A stretch of 64,000 bases of DNA from Variovorax sp. HW608 (GTDB lineage: Bacteria > Pseudomonadota > Gammaproteobacteria > Burkholderiales > Burkholderiaceae_C), in NCBI RefSeq assembly GCF_900090195.1, contig NZ_LT607803.1:1240001-1304000 (forward strand). The letters run 5' to 3'. Each line of letters opens with the position of its first letter. Positions within the stretch are counted from its first letter, which is position 1. Below are positions 27,106 to 51,911 of the stretch, in pieces. A program made the translations under genes and the position numbers. The notes beneath the pieces are model-generated. The model made no database searches. It saw only the letters and a list, made by a program, of their open reading frames with translations, and was not told the DNA's origin.

Positions 27106-27144
27106 CAGCGGCGTCGAGCGGGCGCGCAGTCTTCGACCGGGTGT

Positions 27145-27963
27145 CTACCAGGCGGTGGCGCCGGCATCGATCGCGAAGTCGGCCGCGGTGACCCAGCTCG
27201 ACTCGTCGGAGGCCAGAAAGACGGCGCACCAGGCAACGTCTTCCGGTTGGCCCAGCCGCTTGAGCATGAACTTTTGCAGCGCCTGCTCGCGAAAGCCGGG
27301 TATGTTGTCGAGCGGCTCGCGGGTCGCCGCCGTTTCGACCAGCGCCGGCGAGATCGTATTGACGCGGATGCCGTGCGCCCCGCCTTCCATGGCCAGTTGG
27401 CGCGACATGGCCAGCACCGCTCCCTTGCCGGCGCAATGCGCGAGCGCCGGCGACAGCGGCAACGCCATGCGCGCGTTGGCCGACGCGAAGTTGATCATCG
27501 AGCCGCCGCCGCGCGCTTTCAGATACGGCCAGGCAGCCTGGGCCGCCAGGAACACGATGTCGACTTCGCCGGTCAGCGTCTTGCGCCACTGGCTCTCGTA
27601 ATCCATTTGCTCCAGCCACTGGAAAGCACCGAAGGCGGCGGCGTTGACGACGATGTCGATGCCGCCGCAAAGCTTGGCCGCATGCGCCATCAACCGGCGA
27701 ACCTGCTCGGGCTGCGTCAGGTCCAGCGGGTGTAGGCTGTGCATCGTCAGGCCCTGCGACGCGGCAGTGTCCAGCGTGGCCTGCGCGGCCGCCGCATCGA
27801 TGTCGCAGCCGATCACCTGGGCCCCTTGCTGGGCGAACAGAAGGGCACAGCCGCGCCCGATGCCGGCGCCGATGCCGGTGACCACGGCGACCTTGCCGGC
27901 CAGCCGGGTTCCGCGACTGCCCGGCAGTGCGGGCTTGGGGGAGGGGTTCACGTGCATCGTCAT
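27145..27963 (-). CDS. Short-chain dehydrogenase/reductase family protein with altered active site
   Basis: A 272-residue SDR, the last gene of the 16-gene minus-strand run. The cofactor loop is VVTGIGAGIGRG (about 27-38), with an acidic residue after strand 2 (GCDID) suggesting NAD. The active-site Ser lies in NFASANARM (S161), but the YxxxK position reads HCAGK: His176 replaces the catalytic Tyr while Lys180 is kept. The codon is CAT, one base from TAT. The NNAG element reads VNAAAFG. The C-terminus (TAADFAIDAGATAW) is typical. The start lies 3 bp after the MFS stop. It may be an inactive or mechanistically different SDR. Confidence 0.9.
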   Translation of the reverse strand: MTMHVNPSPKPALPGSRGTRLAGKVAVVTGIGAGIGRGCALLFAQQGAQVIGCDIDAAAAQATLDTAASQGLTMHSLHPLDLTQPEQVRRLMAHAAKLCGGIDIVVNAAAFGAFQWLEQMDYESQWRKTLTGEVDIVFLAAQAAWPYLKARGGGSMINFASANARMALPLSPALAHCAGKGAVLAMSRQLAMEGGAHGIRVNTISPALVETAATREPLDNIPGFREQALQKFMLKRLGQPEDVAWCAVFLASDESSWVTAADFAIDAGATAW

Positions 27964-27966
27964 CGA

Positions 27967-29211
27967 TCAAGCTCCGAATTGTGGCGCCGGTCGACGCCGC
28001 GCCGCACCCGCCATGGCCGCAACGATGGCCAGCGCGACCAGCACGAAGCCGACCAGGCCGACGGCCTGGGCACGCGGGACGACCAGGCCCTTTTCGAGCG
28101 CCACGATCACGATCGGGTTGACGAACAGGCCGAGAAAGAAACCCGACTGGAACGCACCGGTGCCCATGCCGCGGCGCGAGACCGGCAGTCCTCGCATGTT
28201 CCAGGTCACCAGGGCCGGCAGCGTGATGCCGGCACCCAGGCCGTTGACCATGCCGGCGACCGTCAGGGCTGCGTAGCTGTCGGCGGACTGCATCAGCACG
28301 AAGCCGATGCCGGCCACCAGCGCGCCAGTCGCGAGCTGGAATGCCACGCGCAGCCGCCCTGCCAGCACCCAGCCGAACAACAGGGTGCCTGCGATCACCC
28401 CGAGGCTGTTGAGTCCATAGGCGAAGCCGATCGCAGAAGGAGACTGCACCCCGATGGCGCCATGCAGGTAGCCGAAATGCACCGGCACGGTCAGGAACAT
28501 GATGCCGTTCAGGAAGGACAGCACGCAGGTGAAGACGAGCAGGCCCGGGCGAAAACCACGGCTGTCTTCGGCGACCTGCTCGGCGGTCATGCTGGCGCGG
28601 CTTTGCGGTTCCCACAGGTAGATCGCCATCAGCGGCGCCAGCAGCAGGCTCAGCGCGAACACCGCGTAGGGCGCACGCCAGCCGTGCTCGGCGACCACGC
28701 CGCCCACCATGTTCAGCAGGAACGCCGACGATGCCGACACGGTGGTCTGCAGCGACATGAAGCGCTCGCGCTTCGCGCCGCTGTAGTAGTCGCCGATCAT
28801 CGTGGTGCTGACCGTCATCAGCACGGCTTCCATGATGCCCAGGGCGAAGCGACTGGCGATGATCGCGCCCAGCGACTGCAGGTAGAGCGGCGCGGTGCCC
28901 ACCAACGCGTACAGCAGCGTGGCGACCACCAGCAATCGCTTGCGGCCGAAGCGGTCGGCCAACTCGCCGGCGAACACGCTCAGGCCGGCCATCATGAGCA
29001 TCGGCGCGGTCATCGTGAGCGGGACCAGGAAGTCGGCGCTGGGCACATCGGCGAAGTGCGCCTGCATGGCCGGCAGGCTCGGCCCGAGGATGGCCGTGAC
29101 GAGCACCGTGAGGCCACTGGTGATCAGCAGGATGAAGGCCTGGATCGGGCGCGGCGCCGGTCGGCTCGCTGGGGTCGCGGCCGGATCGGAAGGAACGGGA
29201 GAGTCGAACAT
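27967..29211 (-). CDS. MFS transporter
   Basis: A 414-residue major facilitator with about 12 hydrophobic helices. The loop 2-3 signature is present as GELADRFGRKRLLV, and the first periplasmic loop contains GPSLPAMQAHFADVP. It probably imports the substrate or exports an intermediate of the operon. It is separated from the upstream SMP-30 gene by 156 bp, the largest gap in the run, which contains a palindromic repeat. A secondary promoter there is possible. Confidence 0.94.
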   Translation of the reverse strand: MFDSPVPSDPAATPASRPAPRPIQAFILLITSGLTVLVTAILGPSLPAMQAHFADVPSADFLVPLTMTAPMLMMAGLSVFAGELADRFGRKRLLVVATLLYALVGTAPLYLQSLGAIIASRFALGIMEAVLMTVSTTMIGDYYSGAKRERFMSLQTTVSASSAFLLNMVGGVVAEHGWRAPYAVFALSLLLAPLMAIYLWEPQSRASMTAEQVAEDSRGFRPGLLVFTCVLSFLNGIMFLTVPVHFGYLHGAIGVQSPSAIGFAYGLNSLGVIAGTLLFGWVLAGRLRVAFQLATGALVAGIGFVLMQSADSYAALTVAGMVNGLGAGITLPALVTWNMRGLPVSRRGMGTGAFQSGFFLGLFVNPIVIVALEKGLVVPRAQAVGLVGFVLVALAIVAAMAGAARRRPAPQFGA

Positions 29212-29310
29212 GTTTGTCTCTTTGTCTGGTTGTTTTGTATTGCGAGGCGTGCCGCTAGGGCCGGCGCCGGGCCGCCAGCGCGGCGAAGTCCGCGCTTCGC
29301 ACGGACGGGG

Positions 29311-29366
29311 CGGCCTGCGGCCCCCTTCGGGAGGCAGTGACCCACACGAAGTGGGGAAACGTGGGG
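29311..29366. repeat. Palindromic intergenic repeat (REP-like)
   Basis: The segment has two adjacent G/C-rich hairpins: GCCCCCTTCGGGAGGC (29320-29335) and CCCAC-ACGAA-GTGGG (29341-29355), ending in ACGTGGGGG. The combination of a CCCCC/GGGGG hairpin, CAGTGACCCAC and a GTGGGG tail resembles the short dispersed intergenic repeats I associate with Comamonadaceae genomes. It fills the space between the SMP-30 and MFS genes and may stabilise or attenuate the operon mRNA. Confidence 0.5.
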
Positions 29367-29367
29367 G

Positions 29368-30384
29368 TCATCCAGGCCGCCAGTGTGACATCGCCAGTCC
29401 GGCCACCGGCGAGCGGAAACTGGGCAGCGTGGTACCCATCAGGCTGCCCAGGTAGACCGTTTGCAGATCCGGCCCGCCAAAGGTCAGGCTGGCCATCATG
29501 GGTGCCAGCGTGCCCCGGCAGGCGCCCATCAGTTCGGGCGTCACCGTGCCGTCGGCGTAGTGCTGCTCGTAGCTGGCCAGCGCAGCCGGGTTTCCGTCGT
29601 CGAGCAGGGTCAGCAATTCGCCGTCGGGCGTGAGCGCGACCAGGCGCTCCGTGAGCACCAGGGTGATCCACAGGTTGCCGAAGGCGTCGAAGGCGAAGCC
29701 GTCCGGGAAGCCGCCGAGATCGCTCGGGCCGAAGACTTCCCGCGCGCTCACCCGTGCATCGTCGTCCACGCGCAAGCGCGATATCCGCCGTGCATTGGTT
29801 TCGACGACATACAGCCATTCTTCGCTCGCGTCGAAGCGGATCTCGTTGGTACCGACGAAGCCGTCGGCCACGATGCGGATGCCGCGCTCGTCGATCACGC
29901 CGACATAGCCGTCGGCGGTCCTGGCGTTGATCGACTTCGTCCACGGCACTTCGCGCGTGGTCACGGTGAACCAGATCCGGCCGCGCCGGTCGCACAGCAC
30001 GAAGTTGGTCTTGCCCAGCGGCTGGCCGTCGACGCTGTCATAGAGCGTGCGCAACTGGCCATCGCGTGTCATCAGCTCGATCGCGTCGGTGCCGAAGTTG
30101 GCGATGACGATGTTGCCGTCGCGGTCGAAGGCGATGCCGTTGGGCAGGCTGCCGCCCAGCACGGCCGATTCGGCCGTGAGCGACCGGTCCGCGACGCCCC
30201 GCTGCCGGACCAAGGTCTGTGCGCCATCGGCGTCGATGCGCATCACGCCGCGCGCGTCGGCCGTCCAGATCGTGCCGTCGCGCTCGGCCAGGATGCATTC
30301 GGGACGCTGCAGGCCGACACCCAGGTGGCGGATCGCCGATCGGTCGACCCGCCAACCTTTGAGAGGGTTGCTGTCTTTGCTCAT
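29368..30384 (-). CDS. SMP-30/gluconolactonase family protein
   Basis: A 338-residue six-bladed propeller. Metal-site regions are visible: the Glu in LQRPECILAE, the Asn in VGTNEIRFDA and the Asp in FPDGFAFDAFGNLWI. Members are Ca/Zn-dependent lactonases or related hydrolases. The ATG at 30384 gives MSKDSNPLKGWRVDR; longer readings overlap the preceding SDR. In the operon it could open a lactone formed by the dehydrogenases or by a Baeyer-Villiger-like step, but that is an inference from context. No signal peptide is seen, so it should be cytoplasmic. Confidence 0.92.
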   Translation of the reverse strand: MSKDSNPLKGWRVDRSAIRHLGVGLQRPECILAERDGTIWTADARGVMRIDADGAQTLVRQRGVADRSLTAESAVLGGSLPNGIAFDRDGNIVIANFGTDAIELMTRDGQLRTLYDSVDGQPLGKTNFVLCDRRGRIWFTVTTREVPWTKSINARTADGYVGVIDERGIRIVADGFVGTNEIRFDASEEWLYVVETNARRISRLRVDDDARVSAREVFGPSDLGGFPDGFAFDAFGNLWITLVLTERLVALTPDGELLTLLDDGNPAALASYEQHYADGTVTPELMGACRGTLAPMMASLTFGGPDLQTVYLGSLMGTTLPSFRSPVAGLAMSHWRPG

Positions 30385-30404
30385 CTCACTTGTTTCCTTT
30401 GAGT

Positions 30405-31151
30405 TCAGAATCCGAAGCCGCCGCCATCCACGTTCAGGACCTGGCCGGTGATGAAGCCGGCGGCGTCGCTGGCGAGGAAGGCCAGCGCGCCGGTCAGGTC
30501 GTCGGGCAGTTCGGTGCGCGGAATGAACTGGCGCGCGCGCACACCCTCGAAGGCTTCGGCCGGAATGTTCGCGGCACTGCCGGCGTGGCGAGTGAGTCCG
30601 GGCGAGATGGCGTTCACGGTGATGCCCTGCCCGCCCAGTTCCGAGGCCAGCGCGCGCGTGAGGCCGACCACGGCCATCTTGCTGGTGGCATAGGCCGACA
30701 TGCCCGGGGGCGGGCCCCAGACGGTGCTGGACGCCAGGTTGATGATGCGACCCCAGCCGCGCGCGGCCATCTGCGGCGCCAGCGCCTGTGCCAGGAACAG
30801 CGGCGCATCGACGTTGACCGTCATGATCTGGCGCCACAGCGCGGGCGTGATCTCGGCCAGCGCACGCATCGGCATGAAGGCCGCGTTGTTGACCAGCACG
30901 TCGATCCGGCCGGCCTGCGCCGGCGCCGCGGCGGCAAAGCGTTGCACGTCGGCCAGGTCCGCCAGGTCGCAGGCCAGCTCGATGGCCTCTCCGCCTTGCG
31001 CGCAGATCCTGCCCGCGATATCGGCACACGACAGCCGGTCGGTCAACACCAGCCGGTGACCGGCCTCGGCCAAGCGCAATGCAAAGGCCTGGCCCAAGCC
31101 ACCGGCGGCGCCGGTCACCAAGGCCACGCGCGCGGACGTTGAATGGTTCAT
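30405..31151 (-). CDS. SDR family oxidoreductase
   Basis: A 248-residue classical short-chain dehydrogenase. The glycine loop is TGAAGGLGQAF, the NNAG element is VNNAAFMPM, the catalytic Ser is in NLASSTVWG and the YxxxK motif is intact as YATSK. The C-terminus GQVLNVDGGGFGF is standard. Unlike the SDR at 27145, all catalytic residues are present. It sits 20 bp upstream of SMP-30 and 22 bp downstream of the FAD monooxygenase, so it probably oxidises or reduces an alcohol/ketone intermediate. Confidence 0.95.
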   Translation of the reverse strand: MNHSTSARVALVTGAAGGLGQAFALRLAEAGHRLVLTDRLSCADIAGRICAQGGEAIELACDLADLADVQRFAAAAPAQAGRIDVLVNNAAFMPMRALAEITPALWRQIMTVNVDAPLFLAQALAPQMAARGWGRIINLASSTVWGPPPGMSAYATSKMAVVGLTRALASELGGQGITVNAISPGLTRHAGSAANIPAEAFEGVRARQFIPRTELPDDLTGALAFLASDAAGFITGQVLNVDGGGFGF

Positions 31152-31173
31152 GTCGATGATTCCTGGTCGCGGG

Positions 31174-32307
31174 TCAAATGGATGCGGTCAGTGCACGCAT
31201 CGCATGCACCATGACCTCGGTGTGTTCTTCCTTCGAGCCGCCGGACTGCTCGATCTCACCCATTCGCATCGAGCTACCGACCACCAGTCGCGCCCGGTCG
31301 TAACGGCGGCCCGCATAGGCAGTCAGCGCTCCCTCGAGGAAGTGGCAGCGCGCCAGCTCATCCGCCAGCACCACCGCGCCTTCGACCGCGATGCCCGCGC
31401 CGGAGGCCAGGTGCGGCGTGGTCGCATGGACCGCGTCACCGAGCAGGACGACGCGGCCGCGATGCCACGGCGCCGACAACATCAGGCCGGCCAGCGGGCG
31501 ATAGACGATGCGGTGCTGCGGCAGGCTGCCGTCGAGCAGGCCGCTGCGAATCTCGCCGATGGCACCGCCGAACTCGGACAACAACTCGGCCAGCAGGCTG
31601 GGCCATCGATCAACCGGAAGAAACTCGAGGCCGTCGCGCGGGTCGAGCACGAACAGGTAGCTCTCGGTCTCGCTCACCGGATTCAGGCCCGCCTTGGTGG
31701 ACCGGCCCATGTAGATGGTGGAGTTCTGCCGCGTGCGCGGCACCACGGCGCGCCAGGAGCCCTGGCCGGTGAACTTCGGGATCGGGGCACCCGGGAACAC
31801 GGCTTCACGGACCTTCGAATTGACGCCATCGGCGCCGATCACCAGGTCATAGCGGCCGCGCGTGCCGTCGCTGAAGACGACGTCCACGCCGTGCTCGTCC
31901 TGCGCAATCGACTCGAACGTGAGGCCGAGGCGGACGGTCGTGCCGGCCTGGCGCGTGGCGCGGCTCAGGATGTCGGCCAGCACCGGCCGCATGATGCCGC
32001 CGGCCGGCGGCAGATCCTCTGCGCCCACCGCAGGCGCAACGGGCACGGTGGCCGTCACCGTCCCATCGGCGGCGCAGATGTCGATCGCGGACCAGTGGCC
32101 GCCGCGCGCGAGCACCTCGTCCACCACGCCCACCGTGCGCAGCGCACGCAGGGTCGGGCCGCTGACGGTGATGCCCGCGCCGTAGACCGTCCATTCCGGA
32201 TTGAGCTCGACCAGATCGACGGCGACGCCGTGCTTGCGCAGTTGAATGGCGGCGCACATGCCGCCAATGCCGCCGCCGACGATCAGAACCTTGTTGACCA
32301 GTGTCAT
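31174..32307 (-). CDS. FAD-dependent aromatic-type monooxygenase
   Basis: A 377-residue class A flavoprotein monooxygenase (FAD_binding_3). Motifs: Rossmann GxGxxG in LIVGGGIGGMCAAIQLRKHG at the very N-terminus, the DG motif in YDLVIGADGVNSKVRE, and the GD motif in GRVVLLGDAVHATTPHLASG. The ATG at 32307 puts the Rossmann strand at residue 6, as in the family. Such enzymes hydroxylate phenolic or N-heteroaromatic rings using NAD(P)H and oxygen. In this operon it could prepare a vicinal diol for the extradiol-type dioxygenase encoded two genes upstream. The C-terminal extension of larger phenol hydroxylases is absent. Confidence 0.93.
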   Translation of the reverse strand: MTLVNKVLIVGGGIGGMCAAIQLRKHGVAVDLVELNPEWTVYGAGITVSGPTLRALRTVGVVDEVLARGGHWSAIDICAADGTVTATVPVAPAVGAEDLPPAGGIMRPVLADILSRATRQAGTTVRLGLTFESIAQDEHGVDVVFSDGTRGRYDLVIGADGVNSKVREAVFPGAPIPKFTGQGSWRAVVPRTRQNSTIYMGRSTKAGLNPVSETESYLFVLDPRDGLEFLPVDRWPSLLAELLSEFGGAIGEIRSGLLDGSLPQHRIVYRPLAGLMLSAPWHRGRVVLLGDAVHATTPHLASGAGIAVEGAVVLADELARCHFLEGALTAYAGRRYDRARLVVGSSMRMGEIEQSGGSKEEHTEVMVHAMRALTASI

Positions 32308-32320
32308 GACGCAAATTTCC

Positions 32321-33478
32321 TTAGGCGACGTTGCCGCCGAGTTGTTCGGCCAGCCAATCCGCGATCTGATTGCCGGCGTTGTGGGGGTTGTCCAGCGAGC
32401 TGTGTTCGACGCCGCCTTCACGGGCGGTGAAGATCATCAGATCGCGCCGCGGGCTGTTGACCAGTTGCTCGTAGGTCTGGTGCGCGTACTTGAGCGGGAT
32501 CTGCCGGTCGTTCTCGCCATGGGTCACGAGGAAGGGAACCCGGATGCGATCCAGCACGCCGTTCAGATGCATGGCCTCGGCCTTGGCCAGGAAGTCGTCG
32601 ATGTCCCTGGCGCCGAAGACCCATTGCACGTGCTTCCAGTAGTGCGGCACCGGGTTCTCGCCTTCGCGCTTCAGGCGCGCTCGTTGAACCTCGCGCCAGT
32701 CGTGGTTGGCGCCCCAGACGGCGCCGCAGGCGAAGCGCGGCTCGAAGGCGACGGCGCGCGGGCAGTAGTAACCGCCCAGCGAGACGCCCAGGGCGCCGAT
32801 GCGCATGGCATCGACATCGGGCCGCTGGACCAGCCAGTCGACGACCCTGGAGGCCCAGACCTCGGACTCGGGCACGGCCGGCAACTCGTGCAGGCGCAAG
32901 GCCTCGCCGGTGCCGGGCTGGTCCACGAAGAGCGCCGACAGGCCGCGGCGGGCGAGCATCGTGCCCATGACGCTTTTCTGCAGCATCTCCTTGGTGCTGT
33001 CGAGACCGTTCATCACGACGACGATGGGGGCCGGGCCGCTCACGTTTTCGGCGCGCACGTACAGGGCGCTCAGGTGTGCGTCGCCGTACGGGATCTCGAC
33101 GCGCTCGCAGTTCTCGCGCGCCAACTCGCGAGCCTGGGCAAACAGCACCAGCGAGCGCTGGTACATCGCCAGGCGCTGCTCGAAACCATGCGCCTGCATG
33201 CGTTCGGCAATGCCGCAATACAGTGCGGCGCGGCCGAGCTTCTCGCCTGCCGACAGCCTGTGGCCCTTGGCGAGGTCAGCCTCGGCGAGCGCGATCAACT
33301 TGTCGCCGCCGCCCTTCCAGGCCTCGTAGAAGGCCAGCGTGCCGGGGTCGTCGCCCGCGCGCGCCGCTTCGAGGAGGGGCGCGCACATCGCGTCCACCTC
33401 GCCGATGTTGCCGCCATGGGTCAGGGCGATCATCGTGGACAGGCTCCAAACGTAGTTGGAGGGAAAGTACTGGAACAT
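32321..33478 (-). CDS. Alpha/beta hydrolase with N-terminal helical cap (DUF1100/DHPON-hydrolase-like)
   Basis: A 385-residue hydrolase. An N-terminal helical region of about 130 residues (FYEAWKGGGDKLIALAEADL) precedes the alpha/beta core. The core has PIVVVMNGLDSTKEM for the oxyanion area, the nucleophile Ser in ALGVSLGGYY, the acid in VTHGENDRQIPL and the His in GGVEHSSLDN. This layout resembles FrsA/DUF1100 proteins and 2,6-dihydroxypseudooxynicotine hydrolase, a C-C bond hydrolase. After extradiol ring cleavage, a C-C hydrolase is the expected next enzyme, which suits its place two genes after the dioxygenase. The start at 33478 follows the Rieske gene by 14 bp. Confidence 0.9.
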   Translation of the reverse strand: MFQYFPSNYVWSLSTMIALTHGGNIGEVDAMCAPLLEAARAGDDPGTLAFYEAWKGGGDKLIALAEADLAKGHRLSAGEKLGRAALYCGIAERMQAHGFEQRLAMYQRSLVLFAQARELARENCERVEIPYGDAHLSALYVRAENVSGPAPIVVVMNGLDSTKEMLQKSVMGTMLARRGLSALFVDQPGTGEALRLHELPAVPESEVWASRVVDWLVQRPDVDAMRIGALGVSLGGYYCPRAVAFEPRFACGAVWGANHDWREVQRARLKREGENPVPHYWKHVQWVFGARDIDDFLAKAEAMHLNGVLDRIRVPFLVTHGENDRQIPLKYAHQTYEQLVNSPRRDLMIFTAREGGVEHSSLDNPHNAGNQIADWLAEQLGGNVA

Positions 33479-33492
33479 GGTGAGCTCAGCCT

Positions 33493-33849
33493 CTAGATCG
33501 AATCGAAGGGTGTGGGCAGCGCGTCGCCGATCCACACCACGCCAAGGTTGTCGATGCGGGTCGGCACCGGGATCAGCGCCTTCCCCTCGCAGGGGCCGGC
33601 AAAGCAATGGCCGCTGCGGATATCGAAATGCGCCGAATGGGCGTAGCAGACGATGTGCCGTCCGTCGCCCGACAGGAACTGGTCCTGCCGGTACTCGAGC
33701 GGCCGGTGGTCGTGCGGGCAGTCGTTGCGCCAGACGAAGACCTCGTCGCCCTGCCGCACGGCGAACACCTGGTCGTCGTTGCCCTGTCGCAGCAGGCCGC
33801 GCGCGCCGCCATCGGGCAGGTCGGAAATGCGGCACAGCATCTTCGTCAT
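33493..33849 (-). CDS. Rieske [2Fe-2S] ferredoxin-like protein
   Basis: A 118-residue protein consisting of one Rieske domain. The cluster ligands are the C-x-H in NDCPHDHRPLEY and the C-x-x-H in HIVCYAHSAHFD, followed by the usual G-x-C-x-x-GPCEGKAL. The length fits a ferredoxin component of a multicomponent oxygenase or a NirD-like subunit. The ATG at 33849 shares a base with the dioxygenase stop (TGATG), so translation is coupled. No Rieske oxygenase alpha subunit or ferredoxin reductase is in the window, so it may serve the dioxygenase itself or an enzyme encoded elsewhere. Confidence 0.92.
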   Translation of the reverse strand: MTKMLCRISDLPDGGARGLLRQGNDDQVFAVRQGDEVFVWRNDCPHDHRPLEYRQDQFLSGDGRHIVCYAHSAHFDIRSGHCFAGPCEGKALIPVPTRIDNLGVVWIGDALPTPFDSI

Positions 33850-34775
33850 CACTCGCCAGGCGCCCATTTCGGGCGGTGCTCGAACAGGAAGATCTGCGAG
33901 TTGTCGGCGCCCGGCGGCATGGCGCGCGGCGTCCAGCTGTCGTCGTGCAGGTCCATGTCGGCGTCGAACTCCATGGTGCCGCCGAAGGGGCTGTTGAAGT
34001 ACCAGAAGTAGTTGCTGCCCATGACGTGGCGGCCCGGGCCCCAGAAGCTCTTGTAGCCCTTCTGCGCGAAGCGCCAGCCGGCATGCAGCACCTCGTGCGC
34101 CGAACCGAGGTGGAAGGTGAAATGGTTCATGCCGACCATGTGGTCGTTGAAGCTCTGGATCATGAACAAGGTGTGGTGATCCAGCGTGCCGGCCGGGCGC
34201 ATGAAGGGCCCGAGGCCGATGAAGCGGTCGGTCACCCGAAAGCCGAGCCGTTGCTCGTAGAAGGCCTGAGCCTTGGCGACGTCGGGCACGAAGTAGACGA
34301 CGTGCGACAGCGAACGCGGCAGCATCACTTCGTCCTTGTCGGCGGCGCAGACGTTGGGTGCGCGGCCCGGCATCTGGCCCGGCACGTTGATGCCGATGTG
34401 CGGTGCGACGATCGCGCGCCGGCGCGTGACGCGGAACGCAATCGCATAGCCGCCGTCGTCGACGGTATGGATCGTGCCTTCGGCGTCGGTCGCGAGCGCG
34501 CGGTCCTGCCCCAGGTTGTCGGCGATCGCGGCCAGGGTCGCGGCGTCGGCCACGCCGTAGATCGTCTCGCGCAGGTTGGGCGACGGCGCATTGGCCTTGG
34601 GGAGGCCGGGATCGCTGGCGTGGCGCAGCACCACGGCCGTGCCGTCCAGCGCCTCGTAGTTGCCGCCCGCGGCCGAGGCCTCGGTTTCCTTCAGGCCGTA
34701 GTCGAGCAGGTACTGCCTGCCGGCGGCCATGTCTTCGACACCGAAGACGAGTGCGTCGAGTCCGACGATGTTCAT
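33849..34775 (-). CDS. Two-domain VOC extradiol dioxygenase-like protein
   Basis: A 308-residue protein of two vicinal-oxygen-chelate domains, like type I extradiol dioxygenases. The second domain carries the probable iron triad: His in RSLSHVVYFV, His in VGMNHFTFHL and Glu in GGTMEFDADMD, within the family signature region NYFWYFNSPFGGTMEF. The N-terminal domain (about 1-140) lacks such ligands, as is usual. The substrate-side acid/base His cannot be assigned by eye. It should cleave a catechol-like ring next to the diol. The following Rieske gene is translationally coupled to it, and the epimerase gene lies 29 bp upstream. Confidence 0.88.
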   Translation of the reverse strand: MNIVGLDALVFGVEDMAAGRQYLLDYGLKETEASAAGGNYEALDGTAVVLRHASDPGLPKANAPSPNLRETIYGVADAATLAAIADNLGQDRALATDAEGTIHTVDDGGYAIAFRVTRRRAIVAPHIGINVPGQMPGRAPNVCAADKDEVMLPRSLSHVVYFVPDVAKAQAFYEQRLGFRVTDRFIGLGPFMRPAGTLDHHTLFMIQSFNDHMVGMNHFTFHLGSAHEVLHAGWRFAQKGYKSFWGPGRHVMGSNYFWYFNSPFGGTMEFDADMDLHDDSWTPRAMPPGADNSQIFLFEHRPKWAPGE

Positions 34776-34804
34776 GGTTGGTTTCCTTTCAGTGGGTCAG
34801 GCGC

Positions 34805-37632: not shown

Positions 37633-37646
37633 GCGCTCCCCTCCGC

Positions 37647-38930: not shown

Positions 38931-38968
38931 GGGGTGCTCTGGGTTCGGATGAGAAGGGATCGTCGCGT

Positions 38969-39433
38969 TCAGGCCGGACGCGCCGGGCGCGCCGGACGCG
39001 ATTCGAAAGGCTGCAGGAACTCGATCAGGTTGCCGGCGCAATCGCGCACGAACGCCGTGGGATTGCCGTCGACCGTGAGTTCGAATGCGATGTCGGCGCC
39101 CGCGGCGCGCAGCGCGGCCACCGCCGCCGGCACGTCGGGCACCTCGAAGCACATGTGCTTGTTGCCATGCGTCTTCAAATCCAGGTTCGGCACGCGCCGG
39201 TCTTCGGGCAGCGCGGCGGCGCCCTCGACCTCGAAGATCTCGACGCGGAAGTCACCGCGCTTGAGGAAGGCGATGCGCGCCGGAATCTTGGCGATGAACA
39301 GCTGCTCTTCGAGCTCGAAGCCAAGCATGCGCGCATACCAGGCCACGGCCGCGTCCAGATCGGGCACGCTGATGCCGAAGTGATGCGGGCGCAGCGATCC
39401 GATGGCGCCGGGATGGTTGAAAAGATCTGTCAT
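38969..39433 (-). CDS. Single-domain VOC (glyoxalase-like) protein
   Basis: A 154-residue vicinal-oxygen-chelate protein with two beta-alpha-beta modules. Likely metal ligands are the His in [12 protein letters not shown], the Glu in [10 protein letters not shown], the His in [11 protein letters not shown] and the Glu in [10 protein letters not shown], as in glyoxalase I and methylmalonyl-CoA epimerase. It starts 10 bp after the RND gene. It could be an isomerase, epimerase or dioxygenase of the pathway. The C-terminal [10 protein letters not shown] tail is unusual but short. Confidence 0.92.
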
Positions 39434-39443
39434 TGCGAACGGT

Positions 39444-41846
39444 TCAGGGCAGTGCTGGCGCGACGGCGGGTGACGACTCGGGCGTGGTGGCGATTTGCGG
39501 GCGCAGCAGCCAGTGGGCCAGCGCCGGCAACAACACCAGCGCGCCCAGCATGTTCCACAGGAACATGAAGGCCAGCAGCAGTCCCATGTCGGCCTGGAAC
39601 TTGATCGGCGAGAAGACCCAGGTGGCCACGCCCACGCCGAGCGTCAGGCCGGTCAGCAGCACCACCCGGCCGGTGAACTGCAGTGCGCGGCGGTAGGCCT
39701 CGCCCACGCTCGCGCCTTGCCGCAGCGCGCCCAGCATGACGCTGACGATGTAGAGCGCATAGTCGACGCCGATGCCGACGCCGAGTGCGATCACCGGCAG
39801 CGTGGCCACCTTGACGCCCATGCCCAGCGCCACCATCAAGGCTTCGGCCAGCACCGAGGTCAGCATCAGCGGCAGCACCGCAACCAGCACCGCGCGCCAC
39901 GAGCGGAAGGTGATGAAGGCCAGTACCGCCACCGCCGCGTAGACCAGCAACAGCATGCGCGTCCAGGCTTCCTTGACCACGATGTTGGTGGCCGCCTCGA
40001 TGCCGGCGCTGCCGGCCGCGAGCTGGAACTGGACGCCGTCGCCGTCGTTGTCGCGCGCGAAGGCCGCGACCGCATCGACCACGCGCGTCAGCGTGGCGGC
40101 CTTGTGGTCGCCCAGGAAGGCGTAGACGGTGAGCAGATTGCAGGTGTCGTTGTAGAGCCCGCGCGGCGCGTTGGCGGTCACCGTGTTGAGCATGCCCTGG
40201 TTCTTGATCAGGTCGAACCACCTGGGCTGGCCTTCGTTCAGTCCCGCCAGCACGAAGCGATTGAGCTGGGCCAGCGTCTGCGTGGCCTCCACGCCCTCGA
40301 TCTGGCGCAATTGCCATTCCAGCGCATCGACGCGCATCAGCGTGCGATAGGCCGAGCAGTCGCCATCGGGCGTCTTCACCATCACCGCGAACACGTCGCT
40401 GCTGGCCCCGTAGCTGGCGTTGACGAAGGCCACGTCGCGGTTGTAGCGCGACAGGGGGCGCAGTTCCGGCGCGCCGGGGTCGAGATCGCCGATGGCCAGC
40501 CGCTGGCTCATCACCGCCCCCAGGCCGGCCAGCAGCACCGCCACCGCAACGGTGGGAATCGCCCAGCGCCTTTCGGTGAACCGCTGCAGCGTCCGCCACA
40601 GGGCGGTGCCGCCCTCTGCTCCGTCACCGCGCACGCTGCGCGCCGCGGCCGTGGCGCTGACGCCGGTGAATGACAGCAGGATCGGCAGCATGATCAGGTT
40701 GGTGAAGATCAGCGCCGCAACGCCGATGCTGGCTGCCACCGCCAGCTCCTGGATGACGCGGATGTCGATCGCCAGCAGGACCGCGAACCCCACCGCATCG
40801 GCCAGGAGCGCCGTCAGGCCGGCCAGGAAAAGACGCCTGAAGGTGTAGCGGGCCGCGACCCACTTGGGCACGCCACGGCCGATGTCCTGCATGATGCCGT
40901 TCATCTTCTGCGCGCCATGGCTCATGCCGATGGCGAACACCAGGAAGGGCACCAGCATCGAATAAGGGTCCAGCGCGTAGCCCAGTGCCGGCAGCGCGCC
41001 GAGCTGCCAGACCACCGCCACCAGCGAACTCGCCACCACCAGCAAGGTCGAGCGCACGCAGCGCGTGTAGGCGAAGACCATGGCCGCCGCGATCGCGATG
41101 GCCACCGCGAAGAACAGCAGGACCTTGTTCAGGCCTTCGATCAGGTCACCGACGATCTTGGCGAAGCCGGTGATGTGCAGTCGCACGCCTTCGCGCTCGT
41201 ATTGACTGCGCAGGTCCTCCAGCGCGGCCGAGAAGCGCGCGTAGTCGAGCGGCTGGCCCGTGGCATCGGTGGCGAGCAGCGGCACGTAGATCACGCTGGA
41301 GCGGCCGTCCTGCGCGACCAGCTGGCCGATCTCGCCCGAGCGCTGCACGTTGGCCTCGAGCTGGCGCAGGCTCTCGGCCTTGCCGTCGTAGGTATCGGGA
41401 ATGACCGGGCCGCCCTCCAGTCCTTCTTCGGTGACGCCGACCCAACGCGTATTGGGTGTCCAGAGCGACTTCATGCCGGCGCGGTCGACCCCGGGCAGCA
41501 GGAACACGGCGTCGTTCAGCCGACGCAAGGTGTCGAGGTACTTCTGCTCGTACAGGGTGCCGCCTGCATTCTCGACCGTGATGCGCACCGCATTGCCCAG
41601 TCCCTTCAGGTCGCTGCGGTGCGCCAGGTAGTTGGCGATGAAGGCGTGGTGCGCGGGGATGGTCTTTTCGTAGCTGGCGTTGAACCTCAGGTGCGAGGCC
41701 TGCCATCCGAGCAGGAGCGTGATCAATGCGCAAGCCATCAGCACCATGCCGCGGTGGTTGAACAGCAGGCGTTCGACCAGCGATCCCGATCGCGGGTCGA
41801 ACCCACGCCCGGCGTCCTGCGGGCCAGCTGACAAATCGGGGGTCAC
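39444..41846 (-). CDS. RND/MMPL family membrane transporter
   Basis: An 800-residue inner-membrane protein with the two-fold RND layout: one TM helix near residue 35 (MVLMACALITLLLGW), a large periplasmic domain, then five or six helices, repeated. The sterol-sensing-like halves contain VFAIGMSHGAQKMNGI and LGVGIGVDYALYIVSVML; the Asp-Tyr in the second is typical of MMPL proteins. The GTG at 41846 has AAAGGA upstream and overlaps the YCF48 gene stop (GTGA). No membrane-fusion protein or TolC partner is encoded nearby. The family exports lipids and hopanoids or moves hydrophobic compounds, fitting a trans-envelope role with DUF1329 and DUF1302. Confidence 0.93.
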   Translation of the reverse strand: MTPDLSAGPQDAGRGFDPRSGSLVERLLFNHRGMVLMACALITLLLGWQASHLRFNASYEKTIPAHHAFIANYLAHRSDLKGLGNAVRITVENAGGTLYEQKYLDTLRRLNDAVFLLPGVDRAGMKSLWTPNTRWVGVTEEGLEGGPVIPDTYDGKAESLRQLEANVQRSGEIGQLVAQDGRSSVIYVPLLATDATGQPLDYARFSAALEDLRSQYEREGVRLHITGFAKIVGDLIEGLNKVLLFFAVAIAIAAAMVFAYTRCVRSTLLVVASSLVAVVWQLGALPALGYALDPYSMLVPFLVFAIGMSHGAQKMNGIMQDIGRGVPKWVAARYTFRRLFLAGLTALLADAVGFAVLLAIDIRVIQELAVAASIGVAALIFTNLIMLPILLSFTGVSATAAARSVRGDGAEGGTALWRTLQRFTERRWAIPTVAVAVLLAGLGAVMSQRLAIGDLDPGAPELRPLSRYNRDVAFVNASYGASSDVFAVMVKTPDGDCSAYRTLMRVDALEWQLRQIEGVEATQTLAQLNRFVLAGLNEGQPRWFDLIKNQGMLNTVTANAPRGLYNDTCNLLTVYAFLGDHKAATLTRVVDAVAAFARDNDGDGVQFQLAAGSAGIEAATNIVVKEAWTRMLLLVYAAVAVLAFITFRSWRAVLVAVLPLMLTSVLAEALMVALGMGVKVATLPVIALGVGIGVDYALYIVSVMLGALRQGASVGEAYRRALQFTGRVVLLTGLTLGVGVATWVFSPIKFQADMGLLLAFMFLWNMLGALVLLPALAHWLLRPQIATTPESSPAVAPALP

Positions 41847-42952
41847 GATGCCAATCCTTTCTTGCTCGGCGCGGCCAGGCCGACGCCGCGCCAACCGGCC
41901 ACCAGCAGGCTTCCGCCGTCGAGCGCGAGCAGCGCGCCCACCTGCGGTGTCGGTGACTCGCCGAACGGCGCCAGGGTGCGGCCGGCATCCCGGCTGACCA
42001 TCACCTGGCCGGCCTGGTCGGCCAGATACAGCGCGCCCTTGGCATCGAGCGTGGCGGCGGTCAGCGATACCGGCATCGGCACCGCAATGCGCTGCCAGCT
42101 CTCGCCCTGGTCGGCGCTGCGCCATGCGTTGCCACGCAGGCCGGCGACGACGATGGCCGCGCCGCCGCCGTCGGGCACCAGCGTGGCGGTGAAGAAACTG
42201 CCGCTGTAGGGCAGCGCGAGACGCCTGAAGCTGGCGCCGGCGTCGGCGGAGTGAAGAACCAGTCCTTGTTCGCCGGCCAGCCAGATCTCGTCCGCCTGGC
42301 GCGCGATCGCATAGAGATGGCTGGCCTTGGGGTTGGGCAGGCGGTCGAGCCAGGGTTGCCAGCTCTTGCCGCCGTCCTCGGTGGCGAGCGCCAGGTTGTA
42401 GGCACCGACCACGATGCCGCGCAGCGCGTCGATGAAGTGCAGCGCGAGCCAGGGCTTGTCGGGCCCGTCCTGGACGCCGCGCTGGGCCTCCTTCAGTGCC
42501 CTCGCCGAAGCATCGTCGCCGGCACCGTGCGCCTGGGCCGCCTGCAGCACCCGTTGCGCCGCTGTGTCGCCATCGAGCAGGCGTTCCCAGTGCTCGCCGC
42601 CGTCTTCGCTCCTGAGCACCGCGCCGTAATGCCCGACCGCGTAGCCGGTACGCGCGTCGATGAACTGCACCGCCGTGAGCGTGACGCTGACCGGCACGGC
42701 GGCCGCCTGGCGCCAACTGCGCCCCGCGTCGTCGGACAGCACGACGATGCCGCGCTCGCCGACCGCCACCAGGCGGCTGCCGGCGCGTGCCAGCCCGAGC
42801 AGGGCGGAGCGCGCCGCCAGGCGGGTCGGCAGTGCCGGCCGATCGAGCGGCTCGGCCACGGCGGCCACGGCCTTCGGCGCCGCCAGGCCAGGGAGGAGCG
42901 CGGCGCCGCCGAGCAACAGGGCGGTGCGCCGCGACAGTGCGTGCGTGGTCAT
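41843..42952 (-). CDS. YCF48/BNR-repeat exported protein
   Basis: A 369-residue beta-propeller of the YCF48-like (photosystem II assembly, BNR) type. Repeated blades show S/D-DAGRSWRQ, SEDGGEHWERL, TEDGGKSWQPW and HSADAGASFRRL. The N-terminus SRRTALLLGGAALLPGLAA has a twin-arginine-like signal, so it is probably folded before export. It lies between DUF1329 and the RND transporter, overlapping the latter by four bases. Proteins of this type recur with RND transporters and DUF1329/DUF1302 genes in proteobacteria; I take it as a periplasmic scaffold, by inference. Confidence 0.9.
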   Translation of the reverse strand: MTTHALSRRTALLLGGAALLPGLAAPKAVAAVAEPLDRPALPTRLAARSALLGLARAGSRLVAVGERGIVVLSDDAGRSWRQAAAVPVSVTLTAVQFIDARTGYAVGHYGAVLRSEDGGEHWERLLDGDTAAQRVLQAAQAHGAGDDASARALKEAQRGVQDGPDKPWLALHFIDALRGIVVGAYNLALATEDGGKSWQPWLDRLPNPKASHLYAIARQADEIWLAGEQGLVLHSADAGASFRRLALPYSGSFFTATLVPDGGGAAIVVAGLRGNAWRSADQGESWQRIAVPMPVSLTAATLDAKGALYLADQAGQVMVSRDAGRTLAPFGESPTPQVGALLALDGGSLLVAGWRGVGLAAPSKKGLAS

Positions 42953-42967
42953 GGATCGGGCCGGATA

Positions 42968-44338
42968 TCAGCGCACGCCGTCGCCGACCAGGGCATCCGC
43001 CGTGAACCGGGTGTCGGGGTAGCGCGGCATCAGCTTGAATTGCTCGGGCGCGTCGTTGAGTGCGCTGTCGAAGTACCAGGCGCCGGAGACCAGGTCGTAG
43101 AAGCCGAACTGCTGCGGCGAGGTCGTGCCGGGCAGGTCGGGCATCACGATCGGGTTGGCGAAGCCCATCTGCCAGAGCTGGCCATTGGCATCCCAGTGAT
43201 CGGCAAGCACGGCGATCCAGGTGTCCTCGTCGAGGTAGTAGCGGCGCTTGGGGGACACATGCCGCTTGCCTTGCGCGACCGTGGCCTCGATCACCCACAC
43301 CCGGTGCAGCTCCCAGCGCATGTGCTCGGGATTGAGATGGTGCGCCATCAGCACCTCCGATTCCTTGGGTTGCAGCAGCTTGTTGCCGTTGTAGGGGATC
43401 AGCATTTCCTTCTTGCCGACGATCTTCCAGTCGAAGCGGTCGAGGCGCCCGTCGAACACGTCGGTCTGGTCGAAGGTCGCCACGCCGGCCGAGGCCTGGG
43501 TCGGCGTGTCGCAGCAGGCGTTGGGAACCTTGCGCACGCGGCGCTGCCCGGGGATGTAGACCCAGACCTGGGTCTTGTCCGGATCCAGGTTCTGGCGCCC
43601 GGTGATGGCCTCGCCGGCGCGGATCGGCGGGCCGGAGCTCAGGAGCCGGATCATCCAGTGCTCGCCGTTGAACTTGTCGAGCGATCCGTCCTTGAAGTAG
43701 TAGGGCATCTGAAAGTCGCCCGACAGCTCGCCGGTCATCACGTGGCTGCCGTCGGCGGTGGTCTGGATGCCCTTGACCGCCACGTGCCAGGACTCGCCGC
43801 GCCAGCGCAGCACGTGGTTCCACATGGCCTCGGCGCCGCTCTTCGGGATCGGAAACGGAATGCCGCCGTACGCGCCCTCGAGCGCATTGCCGTTGAGCTT
43901 GGCGTTGGTGGCATTCTTGTACGTGTTGTCCAGCACCCATTGCGGCGCCACCGCGGTGCGCCGCGCCGGATAGACGTCGACGCGGAAGCTGTCCGGGTAC
44001 TTCTTGAGCATCGCCTTGACGCCGTCGGTGAGCTTGTCGGCGTAAGAGTCCATGTTCTTCGCATTCACCGAGTACAGCGGCTTGTCGGCGGCAAACGGGT
44101 CGCCGCGCTTGCCGCCGTTCTTGAAGCCGGGGATCGGCGTGGTGTAGCCCCCGCTCCAGGCCGGGATGCTGCCGTCCTTGTTGCCGGCCTTCTCTGCGCC
44201 CAGCGGGGTCAGTTCGGTCTTGAGCCTGGCCGCTTCGTCGCCCGAGACCGCCGCCTGGACGGATACCGCCGCGGCAGCCGACAGGATCGCGGCCGCCGCA
44301 ATGCGCGCCGCGCGCTTGTGCTTCTGCTTGTGAATCAT
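42968..44338 (-). CDS. DUF1329 family outer-membrane-lipoprotein-carrier-like protein
   Basis: A 456-residue exported protein with a signal peptide (AARIAAAAILSAAAAVSVQA). The mature start LKTELTPLGAEKAGNKDGSIP and AWSGG are diagnostic for DUF1329, as are VWVYIPGQRRVRKVPNAC and GKKEMLIPYNGNKL. The family is regarded as LolA/LolB-like in fold, that is, a half barrel that can hold a lipid. It is placed immediately after DUF1302, as usually found. Role in this operon: probable periplasmic shuttle for a hydrophobic compound, by inference from fold and neighbours. Confidence 0.93.
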   Translation of the reverse strand: MIHKQKHKRAARIAAAAILSAAAAVSVQAAVSGDEAARLKTELTPLGAEKAGNKDGSIPAWSGGYTTPIPGFKNGGKRGDPFAADKPLYSVNAKNMDSYADKLTDGVKAMLKKYPDSFRVDVYPARRTAVAPQWVLDNTYKNATNAKLNGNALEGAYGGIPFPIPKSGAEAMWNHVLRWRGESWHVAVKGIQTTADGSHVMTGELSGDFQMPYYFKDGSLDKFNGEHWMIRLLSSGPPIRAGEAITGRQNLDPDKTQVWVYIPGQRRVRKVPNACCDTPTQASAGVATFDQTDVFDGRLDRFDWKIVGKKEMLIPYNGNKLLQPKESEVLMAHHLNPEHMRWELHRVWVIEATVAQGKRHVSPKRRYYLDEDTWIAVLADHWDANGQLWQMGFANPIVMPDLPGTTSPQQFGFYDLVSGAWYFDSALNDAPEQFKLMPRYPDTRFTADALVGDGVR

Positions 44339-44357
44339 GCTGATGTCTCCTTGGCGA

Positions 44358-46088
44358 TCAGAACGTGCGCCGTACGTTGAAAGAAATGAAGTCCCGGTCG
44401 GCATTCGATTGCAGGAACGAACGGTGGTAGTTGCCGCTGGCATCGGCGATCAGGAAGGTCCCGGCCTTGCCGAGGTAATGGGTGTAGTTGAGTGCGAAGT
44501 TCCAGACCCCGAGGTAGGTCCCGTTCAAGCCGATGCTGAGGTCGCCCGTGTCCTTCCCGAGGAAGGCGCCGACCGCAGCCGAGTTGCCCATGAGCCCCCA
44601 GCCCAAACCGACCGGCACCGAGAAATCGAGCCCCGGAAGCACCTGCCGGTACTTGGGCTCGAAGACAGTGCGCACGTTGGCCGCATCGCGCGTTGCATTG
44701 GGATTGAGCGCGGAGAGGTTCTTGGTCACGGAGAGCACCCGGTTCCAGGCCAGTTCGCCGACGAAATCGGCCTCCCTCGAAAGAAAGCTCGGGCCGAGTG
44801 CGGCGATCCACGACAGCTGCGCATGCGCGGTCTTGCCGACTGCGTAGAGGGGGTTGTCGCTGTTGTTGCCGCGGCCGGTGAGATCGACCTGGGCGTCGCT
44901 GTCGAGCGACGCGTTGTAGCGAACCGAAGCCTCGCCCGCGAGGTTGACGTTTCCGACCGTGGTGCTGAAGCTGCCGCCCACCGCCTTCACGCCTTCGTGA
45001 TAGACCCACTGGTAGGTGCCCACCTGCAGGCCCAGGCCGTTGATGTTCGCCAAAGGCGCGATCGTCGTGTAGGGGTGCAGGTACAGCTGCGGGCCGTGTT
45101 CGTTCCAGCGCGCGGCATAGAGACCGTAGTCGACCTCGCCGACATGCCATTTGATCTGCGCCCCGCCCTGGCCCGAGGACTTGGCCTCCATGTCGGCCTG
45201 GCGATAGAAGCCGACATTGCCCAGCGGCGAGGACCCGACGATCAAGCGCGTCGCGCCGGTGCCGAGAAAGTCCACGTTCGAGAAGTAGCTGCCGGTGGCC
45301 GGCAGGCGATCGGGCTCCCAGCCCAGCATGTAGTAACCGCCGACAGTGACGTCCGAGTTGATCTGCAGCTGCCCCGAAATCTGAGGGGTCGGGCGCATGA
45401 ATTCCTTGAACAGCGAGTTCGGCACCGACGCGGCCTTGATCACGTCGACGGCGCCCGCGGCGGCGGCCATGCCGTTGAAACCCATCATGAAGCTCTCGCC
45501 GTACAGCTGGTTGAAGCGGCCCAGCTTGACGGACAGCGGCATGCTCCCCAGATCGGTCTTGCCGAAGACGAAGGCGTCCAGGACTTCGGCATCGCCGCCG
45601 TGCAACTGGCTCGTCGCCGACGTGAACCTGTTGTAGGGCACCGAATTGGAAGTCTGCGGCGAGGTGTTGGCAGTTCCGCGGTGGTAGACGCTGTCGCCCC
45701 AGGCCGCCACGCTGACTCGGCCGCCGAAATCCTTGTAGCTGAGGTCGAATTCGCCCAGCAGGTCGAGCCGGTTCGAGATCAGCCCCCGATTGAAATTGCG
45801 ATCGCCGTCGTCCATGTTGGGGAAGTACAGCGACGAGTTGGGATTGGTGCTCGGGTCGGAGATCAATGCCGGCGACGCCGACTTCAGGCGAAACGCATTG
45901 CTGTACTTGACGGTCGTGTCGAGCCGCATCTTGAGATCGGGGTTGTCGGTCTCCAGTTCGAAGGCCCAGGCCGCCGGACTGGCAGCGGCCAGCAGGGCGG
46001 CTGCGGTCAGGGCGGCGAATGCGGGGGCGGCGTCTTTGCCGTTTCGGCGGCGTGCCTCGGGCGGGCGGAAGGCGGATAGGCGTGTCAC
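44358..46088 (-). CDS. DUF1302 family outer-membrane protein
   Basis: A 576-residue exported protein with a signal sequence (AFAALTAAALLAAASPAAWA) and a mature part rich in alternating strands, ending in ISFNVRRTF, a C-terminal aromatic residue as in outer-membrane beta-barrels. The start FELETDNPDLKMRLDTTVKY matches DUF1302. The GTG at 46088 gives a compact signal peptide; a GTG at 46232 is also in frame and begins two bases after the stop of a short leader frame. It is the first gene of the 16-gene run and probably forms the outer-membrane entry channel. Confidence 0.9.
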   Translation of the reverse strand: MTRLSAFRPPEARRRNGKDAAPAFAALTAAALLAAASPAAWAFELETDNPDLKMRLDTTVKYSNAFRLKSASPALISDPSTNPNSSLYFPNMDDGDRNFNRGLISNRLDLLGEFDLSYKDFGGRVSVAAWGDSVYHRGTANTSPQTSNSVPYNRFTSATSQLHGGDAEVLDAFVFGKTDLGSMPLSVKLGRFNQLYGESFMMGFNGMAAAAGAVDVIKAASVPNSLFKEFMRPTPQISGQLQINSDVTVGGYYMLGWEPDRLPATGSYFSNVDFLGTGATRLIVGSSPLGNVGFYRQADMEAKSSGQGGAQIKWHVGEVDYGLYAARWNEHGPQLYLHPYTTIAPLANINGLGLQVGTYQWVYHEGVKAVGGSFSTTVGNVNLAGEASVRYNASLDSDAQVDLTGRGNNSDNPLYAVGKTAHAQLSWIAALGPSFLSREADFVGELAWNRVLSVTKNLSALNPNATRDAANVRTVFEPKYRQVLPGLDFSVPVGLGWGLMGNSAAVGAFLGKDTGDLSIGLNGTYLGVWNFALNYTHYLGKAGTFLIADASGNYHRSFLQSNADRDFISFNVRRTF

Positions 46089-46233
46089 GTTGTCTCGTTC
46101 TAGGTCTGGTTGTCGTGGTGGACGGAAATCCGGGCGCGCCAGGCATGGCTGCGCCCAACCCGCCAGTTCGCGCATGCGCGCTGGACGGGGTTCGTGCTCG
46201 GGGATTTGCGGGGCGGACGCCCGCGGGCTCACC

Positions 46234-46348: not shown

Positions 46349-46396
46349 AGCTGTTGATGCCATCAAATCCTCGGCGCCGGGTGCCAGAATGAGGCC

Positions 46397-51907: not shown

Positions 51908-51911
51908 GGCG

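Follow-up and report, generated by a model that had tools for sequence, protein, structure and literature searches.

What does the run of sixteen minus-strand genes at positions 46088 to 27145 of the window encode, and on which substrate would its products act? The window is the whole stretch of DNA analysed here, 64,000 nucleotides from Variovorax sp. HW608 (contig NZ_LT607803.1, positions 1,240,001 to 1,304,000). Comparison with related loci suggests that the operon encodes one more variant of the flavonoid pathways that cleave the A-ring, next to the fde pathway (naringenin, Herbaspirillum seropedicae SmR1) and the ifc pathway (isoflavone, Variovorax sp. V35), most likely for flavan-3-ols and dihydroflavonols such as catechin and taxifolin. 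We give this reading a probability of about 0.55. That the genes serve an A-ring-cleaving flavonoid pathway of some kind is probable, and catechin and taxifolin as the substrate class, taken alone, have about an even chance.

The reading frames of all sixteen genes were open and intact, and for every gene the domain matches agreed with the gene list of an earlier note on this DNA. The tight packing described there was confirmed, with 14 of the 15 junctions at 38 bp or less and a gap of 156 bp between the SMP-30 and major facilitator superfamily (MFS) genes. With the start codons chosen here, the junctions in transcription order were 19, 15, -4, 10, 38, 14, -4, 29, -4, 14, 13, 22, 20, 156 and 3 bp, which gives three 4-bp overlaps and not the four overlapping junctions claimed. 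We infer co-transcription of the genes. A catabolic unit for a hydrophobic aromatic compound, acting by ring hydroxylation, extradiol cleavage and C-C hydrolysis, was supported. The statement that no characterised pathway has such a gene set did not hold: the described fde and ifc clusters share the hydroxylase/Rieske/dioxygenase/hydrolase core, and the set DUF1302-DUF1329-YCF48-RND corresponds to the AmeABCD cassette, which has likewise been described. The chemistry is thus of a familiar kind, because the core is of the fde/ifc type and the four front genes are of the AmeABCD type. For the part with HisD, the CrtO-like enzyme, SMP-30, a vicinal oxygen chelate (VOC) protein and the short-chain dehydrogenases/reductases (SDRs), and for its clade, no description was found in the literature searched.

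The dioxygenase (33849..34775, minus strand, as are all sixteen genes; PF00903) is a VOC extradiol dioxygenase of the FdeC/IfcB type. Its residues H158, H218 and E269 align with the 2-His-1-Glu site of BphC and H201, H250 and Y259 with the second-sphere residues; none of them varied among 27 aligned sequences (that of the window plus 26 from 120 homologues among the matches listed). The adjoining gene encodes an FdeD-like Rieske ferredoxin (33493..33852; PF00355; CxH...CxxH at 45-72), an arrangement expected of an fde-type cluster. The next enzyme (32321..33478) is an alpha/beta hydrolase and predicted C-C hydrolase. Its best solved relative is 2,6-dihydroxypseudooxynicotine (DHPON) hydrolase (PDB 2jbw, E 5e-27), with which the GxSxGG, Asp and His regions align. 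Residue roles and numbering in BphC, DHPON hydrolase, HisD and SMP-30 are assumed here. The group A FAD monooxygenase (31174..32307; FAD_binding_3, PF01494) belongs to a clade beside the FdeE-type enzymes.

Related loci in other genomes (L040-L091) carried copies of the window dioxygenase with 56-63% identity and, where present, of the hydrolase with 60-66%. Some loci had the order MetA-like porin, hydrolase, dioxygenase, Rieske protein, monooxygenase, MFS, cyclase, cupin, FAH and DenD, for example on a plasmid of Burkholderia anthina (L096). These fde-order loci appear to match fdeA-J in the number of genes and in the positions known for C, D and E. The window dioxygenase shares 56-60% identity with their dioxygenases; for B. 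anthina the values are 60% for the dioxygenase and 63% for the hydrolase. The window monooxygenase shares 49% identity with a protein named FdeE, 50% with the B. anthina enzyme and 38-39% with an ifc-like enzyme of Bradyrhizobium elkanii. One source gives the name FdeE to a protein that has 67% identity with the monooxygenase of B. anthina. According to PMC11069340, IfcA 8-hydroxylates daidzein, there is evidence for ring cleavage by the glyoxalase-type IfcB, the two are likened to FdeE and FdeC, the cluster has a DHPON-hydrolase-like alpha/beta hydrolase, and the cupin IfcD acts on the pyranone product from isoflavones. FdeE is described as working with the Rieske protein FdeD (PMC8552027). 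The B. anthina plasmid was typed as conjugative; the relevant parts of L096, 867-2450 and 8936-19101, comprise the whole fde-order cluster with an extra EthD gene and, upstream, a CrtO-like paralogue (47%).

A profile search with the dioxygenase in a species-level genome collection gave 457 relatives, and the best 80 loci were examined with all genes of the window and with other recurring genes, gene presence per locus being judged by tblastn thresholds. A tree of the monooxygenases with 89 rows was computed by a quick method with SH-aLRT as the sole support measure, and the program flagged long branches. In this tree the window enzyme shared a clade with the enzymes of 25 of the 80 loci. The support of the fork was 87, below the program's star of 95, and two Acinetobacter rows join just outside the clade with support of 95. 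The clade loci contained HisD in 19 cases, the CrtO-like enzyme in 20, an SDR termed c17 in 21, FAH in 19, SMP-30 in 21, DenD in 21, the VOC protein in 18, SDR1 in 22, MFS in 15, SDR2 in 12, LysR in 14 and an Ame-type resistance-nodulation-division (RND) protein in 4. Among the 55 loci outside the clade, HisD, CrtO-like, c17 SDR and SDR1 genes were found in none and SMP-30 and VOC in one each, while FAH occurred in 24, DenD in 19, MFS in 21 and RND in 34. The cupin was present in 0 of 25 clade loci versus 22 of 55 others and the cyclase in 0 of 25 versus 23 of 55. Fisher tests for eight genes gave values from 8e-17 to 7e-5; they count related genomes as independent and thus serve for description only. 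Within the clade, HisD, the CrtO-like flavoenzyme, SMP-30, VOC and the SDRs replace the cupin and cyclase genes.

Some absences reflect the limits of the stretches. Of the CrtO-like gene, only the end is present in L012, where the contig stops, and only a C-terminal piece in L036; SMP-30 and MFS of Derxia lie beyond stretch L020. A strict joint loss of the CrtO-like and SDR1 genes was considered and dropped: L029 is the one locus with complete flanks that lacks both, L030 stops at a contig end, and L028 lacks SDR1 but keeps the CrtO-like gene.

The earlier note had proposed a search for the same gene order in other genomes, and conserved synteny was found. Rhodoferax sp. OV413 (L013, L163) and Azohydromonas aeria (L018, L164) have the same order in one direction from DUF1302 through SDR2, with two extra genes, SDR-FAH, between HisD and the CrtO-like gene. 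Much of the order recurs in Derxia gummosa, where DUF1302 to SDR1 are collinear and SMP-30 and MFS lie across LysR on the other side. Within the genus, an FdeC-type dioxygenase occurred in 9 of 100 genomes including that of HW608 (E <= 1e-80). By similarity to the B. anthina and B. elkanii loci, six of the other eight had an ifc-like cluster, one an fde-like cluster, and one an fde-like cluster together with an ifc-like one, the latter with no monooxygenase found. The CrtO-like gene was present in 1 of 100 genus genomes, that of HW608 itself (E <= 1e-100), and in 2 of 200 family genomes, HW608 included (E <= 1e-200), indicating that the operon is a rare accessory in genus and family. The large protein set held at least 120 homologues of it, all those listed being at least 78% identical. 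As for the genes flanking the operon, 93 of 100 genus genomes had a match to the M20 neighbour (E <= 1e-150) and 20 of 100 had one to the Dak1 neighbour (E <= 1e-120).

Could the operon degrade the same flavanones and flavones as fde, naringenin type, only with SMP-30, HisD and SDR in place of cyclase and cupin? FAH and DenD accompany both kinds of cluster, a 70% identical SMP-30 occurs in an Azospirillum B510 cluster with fde-like monooxygenase and cyclase, and FdeE is reported to take flavanones, flavones, flavonols and isoflavones (PMC11303751). Yet the window monooxygenase falls in a separate clade, the CrtO-like enzyme and SDR1 are extra, and an fde-like core coexists with this cluster in several genomes. 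In Burkholderia sp. Ax-1719 (L022) and Sphaerotilus hippei (L129) the core stands directly beside the cluster; in S. hippei (L129/L039), fde-like hydrolase, dioxygenase, Rieske and monooxygenase genes directly precede the cluster with HisD and the CrtO-like gene and have the same strand. Both clusters, on separate contigs, are also present in Trinickia terrae (L035, L089) and in Paraburkholderia bannensis NBRC 103871 (L031, L084). Because these four carry both, a substrate other than that of fde is suggested, and we consider a naringenin-type role unlikely.

For flavan-3-ols, the informative case is Paraburkholderia oxyphila. The draft genome of strain NBRC 105797 (L032), which we take to be the type strain OX-01, contains the enzyme set and in it the sole FdeC-like dioxygenase locus; the seven other dioxygenase matches in this genome are only 30-40% identical. 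P. oxyphila is reported to catabolise catechin and, through two oxidations, to form taxifolin from it (PMC7979770, PMC11794353), and Variovorax, Burkholderia and Pseudomonas have been isolated on catechin (PMC3877349). In the literature searched, judged on its best-ranked part by listings and the openings of abstracts, no catechin or taxifolin catabolic gene cluster was named, and no paper combining HisD, flavonoid, SMP-30 and extradiol was found. In 1972, Jeffrey et al. reportedly described the A-ring hydroxylation of taxifolin and the A-ring fission of dihydrogossypetin by a Pseudomonas, to go by the titles. The products in these Biochem. J. papers were reportedly oxaloacetate and an aryl hydroxy-oxo-valero-delta-lactone.

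A similar outcome was derived by analogy with compounds X1-X3 described in PMC11069340. Cleavage of a 7,8-dihydroxy A-ring at C8-C8a would turn C8a into an ester carbonyl, and in a 5-hydroxy flavonoid with a saturated C-ring, hydrolysis at C4a-C5 would free oxaloacetate and leave a delta-lactone. Such a product would need a lactonase, for which SMP-30, found in most clade loci, is the candidate. The SMP-30/gluconolactonase-like protein of the window (29368..30384; SGL, PF08450, E 7.7e-26) has E29, N127, N180 and D228 as presumed metal residues, and all four are unchanged across an alignment of 16 sequences (that of the window plus 15 of the 22 copies from the loci).

We infer the following reactions and their order. 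The CrtO-like flavoenzyme, a candidate catechin C4 oxidase, and SDR1 would oxidise C4 of the flavan-3-ol to give the dihydroflavonol, a speculative step. The FAD monooxygenase with the Rieske protein would hydroxylate C8 of the A-ring, the FdeC-type dioxygenase would cleave the 7,8-diol at C8-C8a, and the DHPON-hydrolase-like enzyme would cut the acylpyruvate at C4a-C5 to oxaloacetate and the aryl delta-lactone. SMP-30 would then open the lactone, and HisD, DenD and the SDRs would oxidise side-chain alcohols. Finally, an FAH hydrolase, encoded with a second HisD and an SDR at another locus, would split the resulting diketo acid, releasing a benzoate along with a small acid. Transport would fall to the Ame-type set and the MFS protein (27967..29211; MFS_1, PF07690), and regulation to the divergent LysR protein. 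The VOC (glyoxalase-fold) protein (38969..39433; PF00903, PF13669) has no assigned step.

The first step is the most tentative. The flavoenzyme (35758..37632; Amino_oxidase, phytoene-desaturase-like) has CrtO as its best NCBIfam match (E 8.5e-65), but its 219.3 bits are far below the cut-off of 1000, and orthology to CrtO was rejected on this score. CrtO itself introduces a C4 keto group at a ring CH2, a reaction that would be analogous to the conversion of catechin to taxifolin. A role of the CrtO-like enzyme in catechin oxidation is possible but doubtful. SDR1 (30405..31151; PF13561) is a classical SDR specific to the clade, and SDR2 (27145..27963; PF13561) is a further classical SDR. The DenD-like extended SDR (34805..35761; Epimerase) scores 233.8 bits with NF043036, below the cut-off of 325, and its gene is the last one of the fde-order loci. 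DenD and FAH do not point to a sugar because both occur in fde-order clusters, and a C-glycoside substrate was dropped for this reason.

For HisD (37647..38930; Histidinol_dh, PF00815), a reading as the biosynthetic enzyme was rejected. It is nearer to HpsN, sulfopropanediol 3-dehydrogenase (PDB 8v35, E 4.3e-115), than to biosynthetic HisD (1k75, 4.8e-70), with the motifs kept at 249, 317, 350 and 411. HpsN acts as a primary-alcohol dehydrogenase. This bears on another explanation, in which a non-flavonoid substrate of resorcinol or phloroglucinol type (a dihydrochalcone, an acylphloroglucinol, or a lichen or lignan phenol) has its CH2OH group oxidised by HisD. The core chemistry would require only a suitable 1,3-diol ring, and HisD relatives within the genus sit in differing neighbourhoods. 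The catechin catabolism of P. oxyphila argues against such a substrate, as do the characterised dioxygenase/monooxygenase pairs, which act on flavonoids as described in PMC11069340 and PMC8552027; we regard it as less likely still than a naringenin-type role. Two other genus genomes (L141, L142) have an HpsN-branch HisD (86-87%) near an SDR and DUF1302, in L142 also DUF1329, with an MFS gene recognised by eye and no dioxygenase of the query set in 20 kb. These loci represent another possible use of HpsN-branch HisD.

Compared with Rhodoferax and Azohydromonas, the window operon is without the SDR-FAH pair. One explanation would be a pathway in decay in this genome, the pair having been lost from the operon. 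The c17 SDR and FAH are common in the clade and lie between HisD and the CrtO-like gene (e.g., L013, L018, L020, L039), and no close match to either was found in the window. Decay is nevertheless the least probable of the explanations weighed here, given sixteen intact frames and a second locus in the same genome at 2.110-2.112 Mb (L092 = 2102001-2121000, about 7822-12799). This locus has a LysR gene, a broken SMP-30, HisD, SDR and FAH. Its HisD is 86% identical to that of the window, its SDR and FAH are 71% and 69% identical to those of Rhodoferax (L013), and a 4-hydroxybenzoate 3-monooxygenase gene is about 4 kb away. Another FAH relative (51%) lies at 3.26 Mb. By its gene content, the second locus looks complementary to the window operon. 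It is conceivable, though rather unlikely, that these genes encode the aerobic pathway from catechin through taxifolin and dihydrogossypetin whose biochemistry was reportedly described in 1972, with C4 oxidation by the CrtO-like enzyme and SDR and with SMP-30, HisD, SDR and FAH acting on the lactone, split over two loci by complementary loss after duplication.

Several observations weigh against a flavan-3-ol pathway. The second locus may serve another pathway, and a single draft genome of P. oxyphila provides no more than a correlation. The proposed route offers HisD no obvious primary alcohol, which leaves this HpsN-branch enzyme without a clear place. The CrtO-like and SDR1 genes are not strictly linked: L028 has the former without SDR1, and L036 and L038 have SDR1 but no complete CrtO-like gene. 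Clusters with other monooxygenases likewise contain HisD and SDR, as in Massilia, or SMP-30, as in Azospirillum, and FAH and DenD occur in 24 and 19 of the 55 loci outside the clade, so that no single one of these genes points to a flavan-3-ol. HisD-SDR-FAH-DenD was found with another monooxygenase in Massilia and on a 5.2-kb contig (L143) with no dioxygenase in sight, indicating a movable module. The fde anchor consists of gene order and one FdeE-named protein, not the SmR1 or V35 sequences themselves. A C-ring hydrolysis of taxifolin has been proposed in a Pseudomonas (PMC3877349). In strain V35, disruption of the DHPON-hydrolase-like gene reportedly left daidzein degradation unaffected (PMC11069340), so the C-C hydrolysis step may belong to another enzyme.

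The front of the operon is a cassette from 46088 to 39444 with AmeABCD-type gene content. It consists of a DUF1302 protein resembling the outer-membrane protein AmeA (44358..46088; PF06980; GTG start), an AmeB-like DUF1329 protein (42968..44338; PF07044), an AmeC-like YCF48 protein (41843..42952; YCF48/PSII_BNR, COG4447, PF14870) and an AmeD-like MMPL/HAE3-like RND transporter (39444..41846; PF03176; GTG start; 4-bp overlap with the preceding gene). The best match of the RND protein was TIGR00921 (HAE3), with 146.9 bits against a cut-off of 351.9. A LysR-type regulator gene (46397..47362, plus strand; Pfam HTH_1 and LysR_substrate) is divergent from DUF1302 at a spacing of 308 bp. A palindrome like those bound by LysR-type regulators (46354..46366; T-N11-A with 6-bp arms) lies 30 bp before the LysR start, with a further dyad nearby at 46319-46348. 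LysR genes with 72-74% identity adjoin the cluster elsewhere, divergent from DUF1302 in Azohydromonas and Derxia and at the far end in Rhodoferax. In Azohydromonas and Derxia the palindrome region is partly conserved at about the same distance, the palindrome there being imperfect.

Whether the genes form one unit can be judged in part from this arrangement. Separate expression of the Ame block, the enzyme block and MFS-SDR2 would fit the 156-bp gap before MFS, the Paraburkholderia-type loci, which have MFS on the opposite strand and no Ame block within 10 kb, and the reshuffled blocks in Pseudomonas citronellolis and P. oryzagri. Rhodoferax and Azohydromonas, however, keep the order, which speaks for a single operon, and several units seem improbable. 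A scan of 27000-46500 for sigma-70-like promoters gave 0 matches versus 1.6 expected from shuffles; none was found at the operon front either, and the scan therefore says little about internal promoters.

Pseudomonas loci among L045-L091 showed a recurrent LysR-dioxygenase-Rieske-monooxygenase-DUF1302-DUF1329-YCF48-RND-MFS unit with a third monooxygenase clade, often adjoining a gene that by eye resembles an amidohydrolase. Beyond LysR, the window contains at 48103-56618 a split dihydroxyacetone kinase (Dak1, Dak2), ABC sugar-type transporter genes and a LacI regulator.

Catechins and their polymers, the condensed tannins, are abundant plant phenols. For an anaerobic route, a 2025 paper describes the conversion of catechin to taxifolin 'by unknown enzymes' (PMC12203004). 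The conserved gene set, with its one-enzyme predictions, makes the proposal testable in the catechin-growing type strain and may serve as a marker separating the kinds of flavonoid A-ring-cleaving clusters. A new reaction is also suggested for CrtO-like flavoenzymes and for HpsN-branch HisD.

Among known systems, HpsN is the nearest solved relative of HisD, with its motifs kept; no sulfonate gene was recognised among the sixteen genes of the window. With the CrtO/phytoene desaturase family, the window enzyme shares the FAD-binding fold, whereas its gene stands outside any carotenoid cluster. AmeABCD, the tetrapartite RND system of Castellaniella defragrans in which AmeA has been described (PMC6394551), has DUF1302, DUF1329, YCF48-like (COG4447) and RND genes in the same order; it sits in a monoterpene island, whereas the window cassette is in a flavonoid-type operon. 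With ifc, the operon shares the monooxygenase, the glyoxalase-type dioxygenase and the DHPON-hydrolase-like protein, but it has other downstream enzymes. No IfcD-like cupin was found among the sixteen genes or, with an fde-type cupin query, elsewhere in the window. Membership in ifc was rejected on this absence and on the low identity of the monooxygenase to the B. elkanii enzyme, which stood in for V35 IfcA in the comparison. With fde, the shared parts are LysR, the FAD monooxygenase, the Rieske ferredoxin and the VOC extradiol dioxygenase and, going by the order of the B. anthina locus, the alpha/beta hydrolase and the DenD-like SDR, the FAH of HW608 being at the second locus. Membership in fde was likewise rejected, the monooxygenase being in a clade apart from the FdeE-named protein and no FdeA-like (MetA-like) outer-membrane protein, cyclase or cupin, as assigned by gene order, being found among the sixteen genes. 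In contrast to fde, the window operon has HisD, the CrtO-like enzyme, the VOC protein, SMP-30, SDR1, SDR2 and the Ame-type set.

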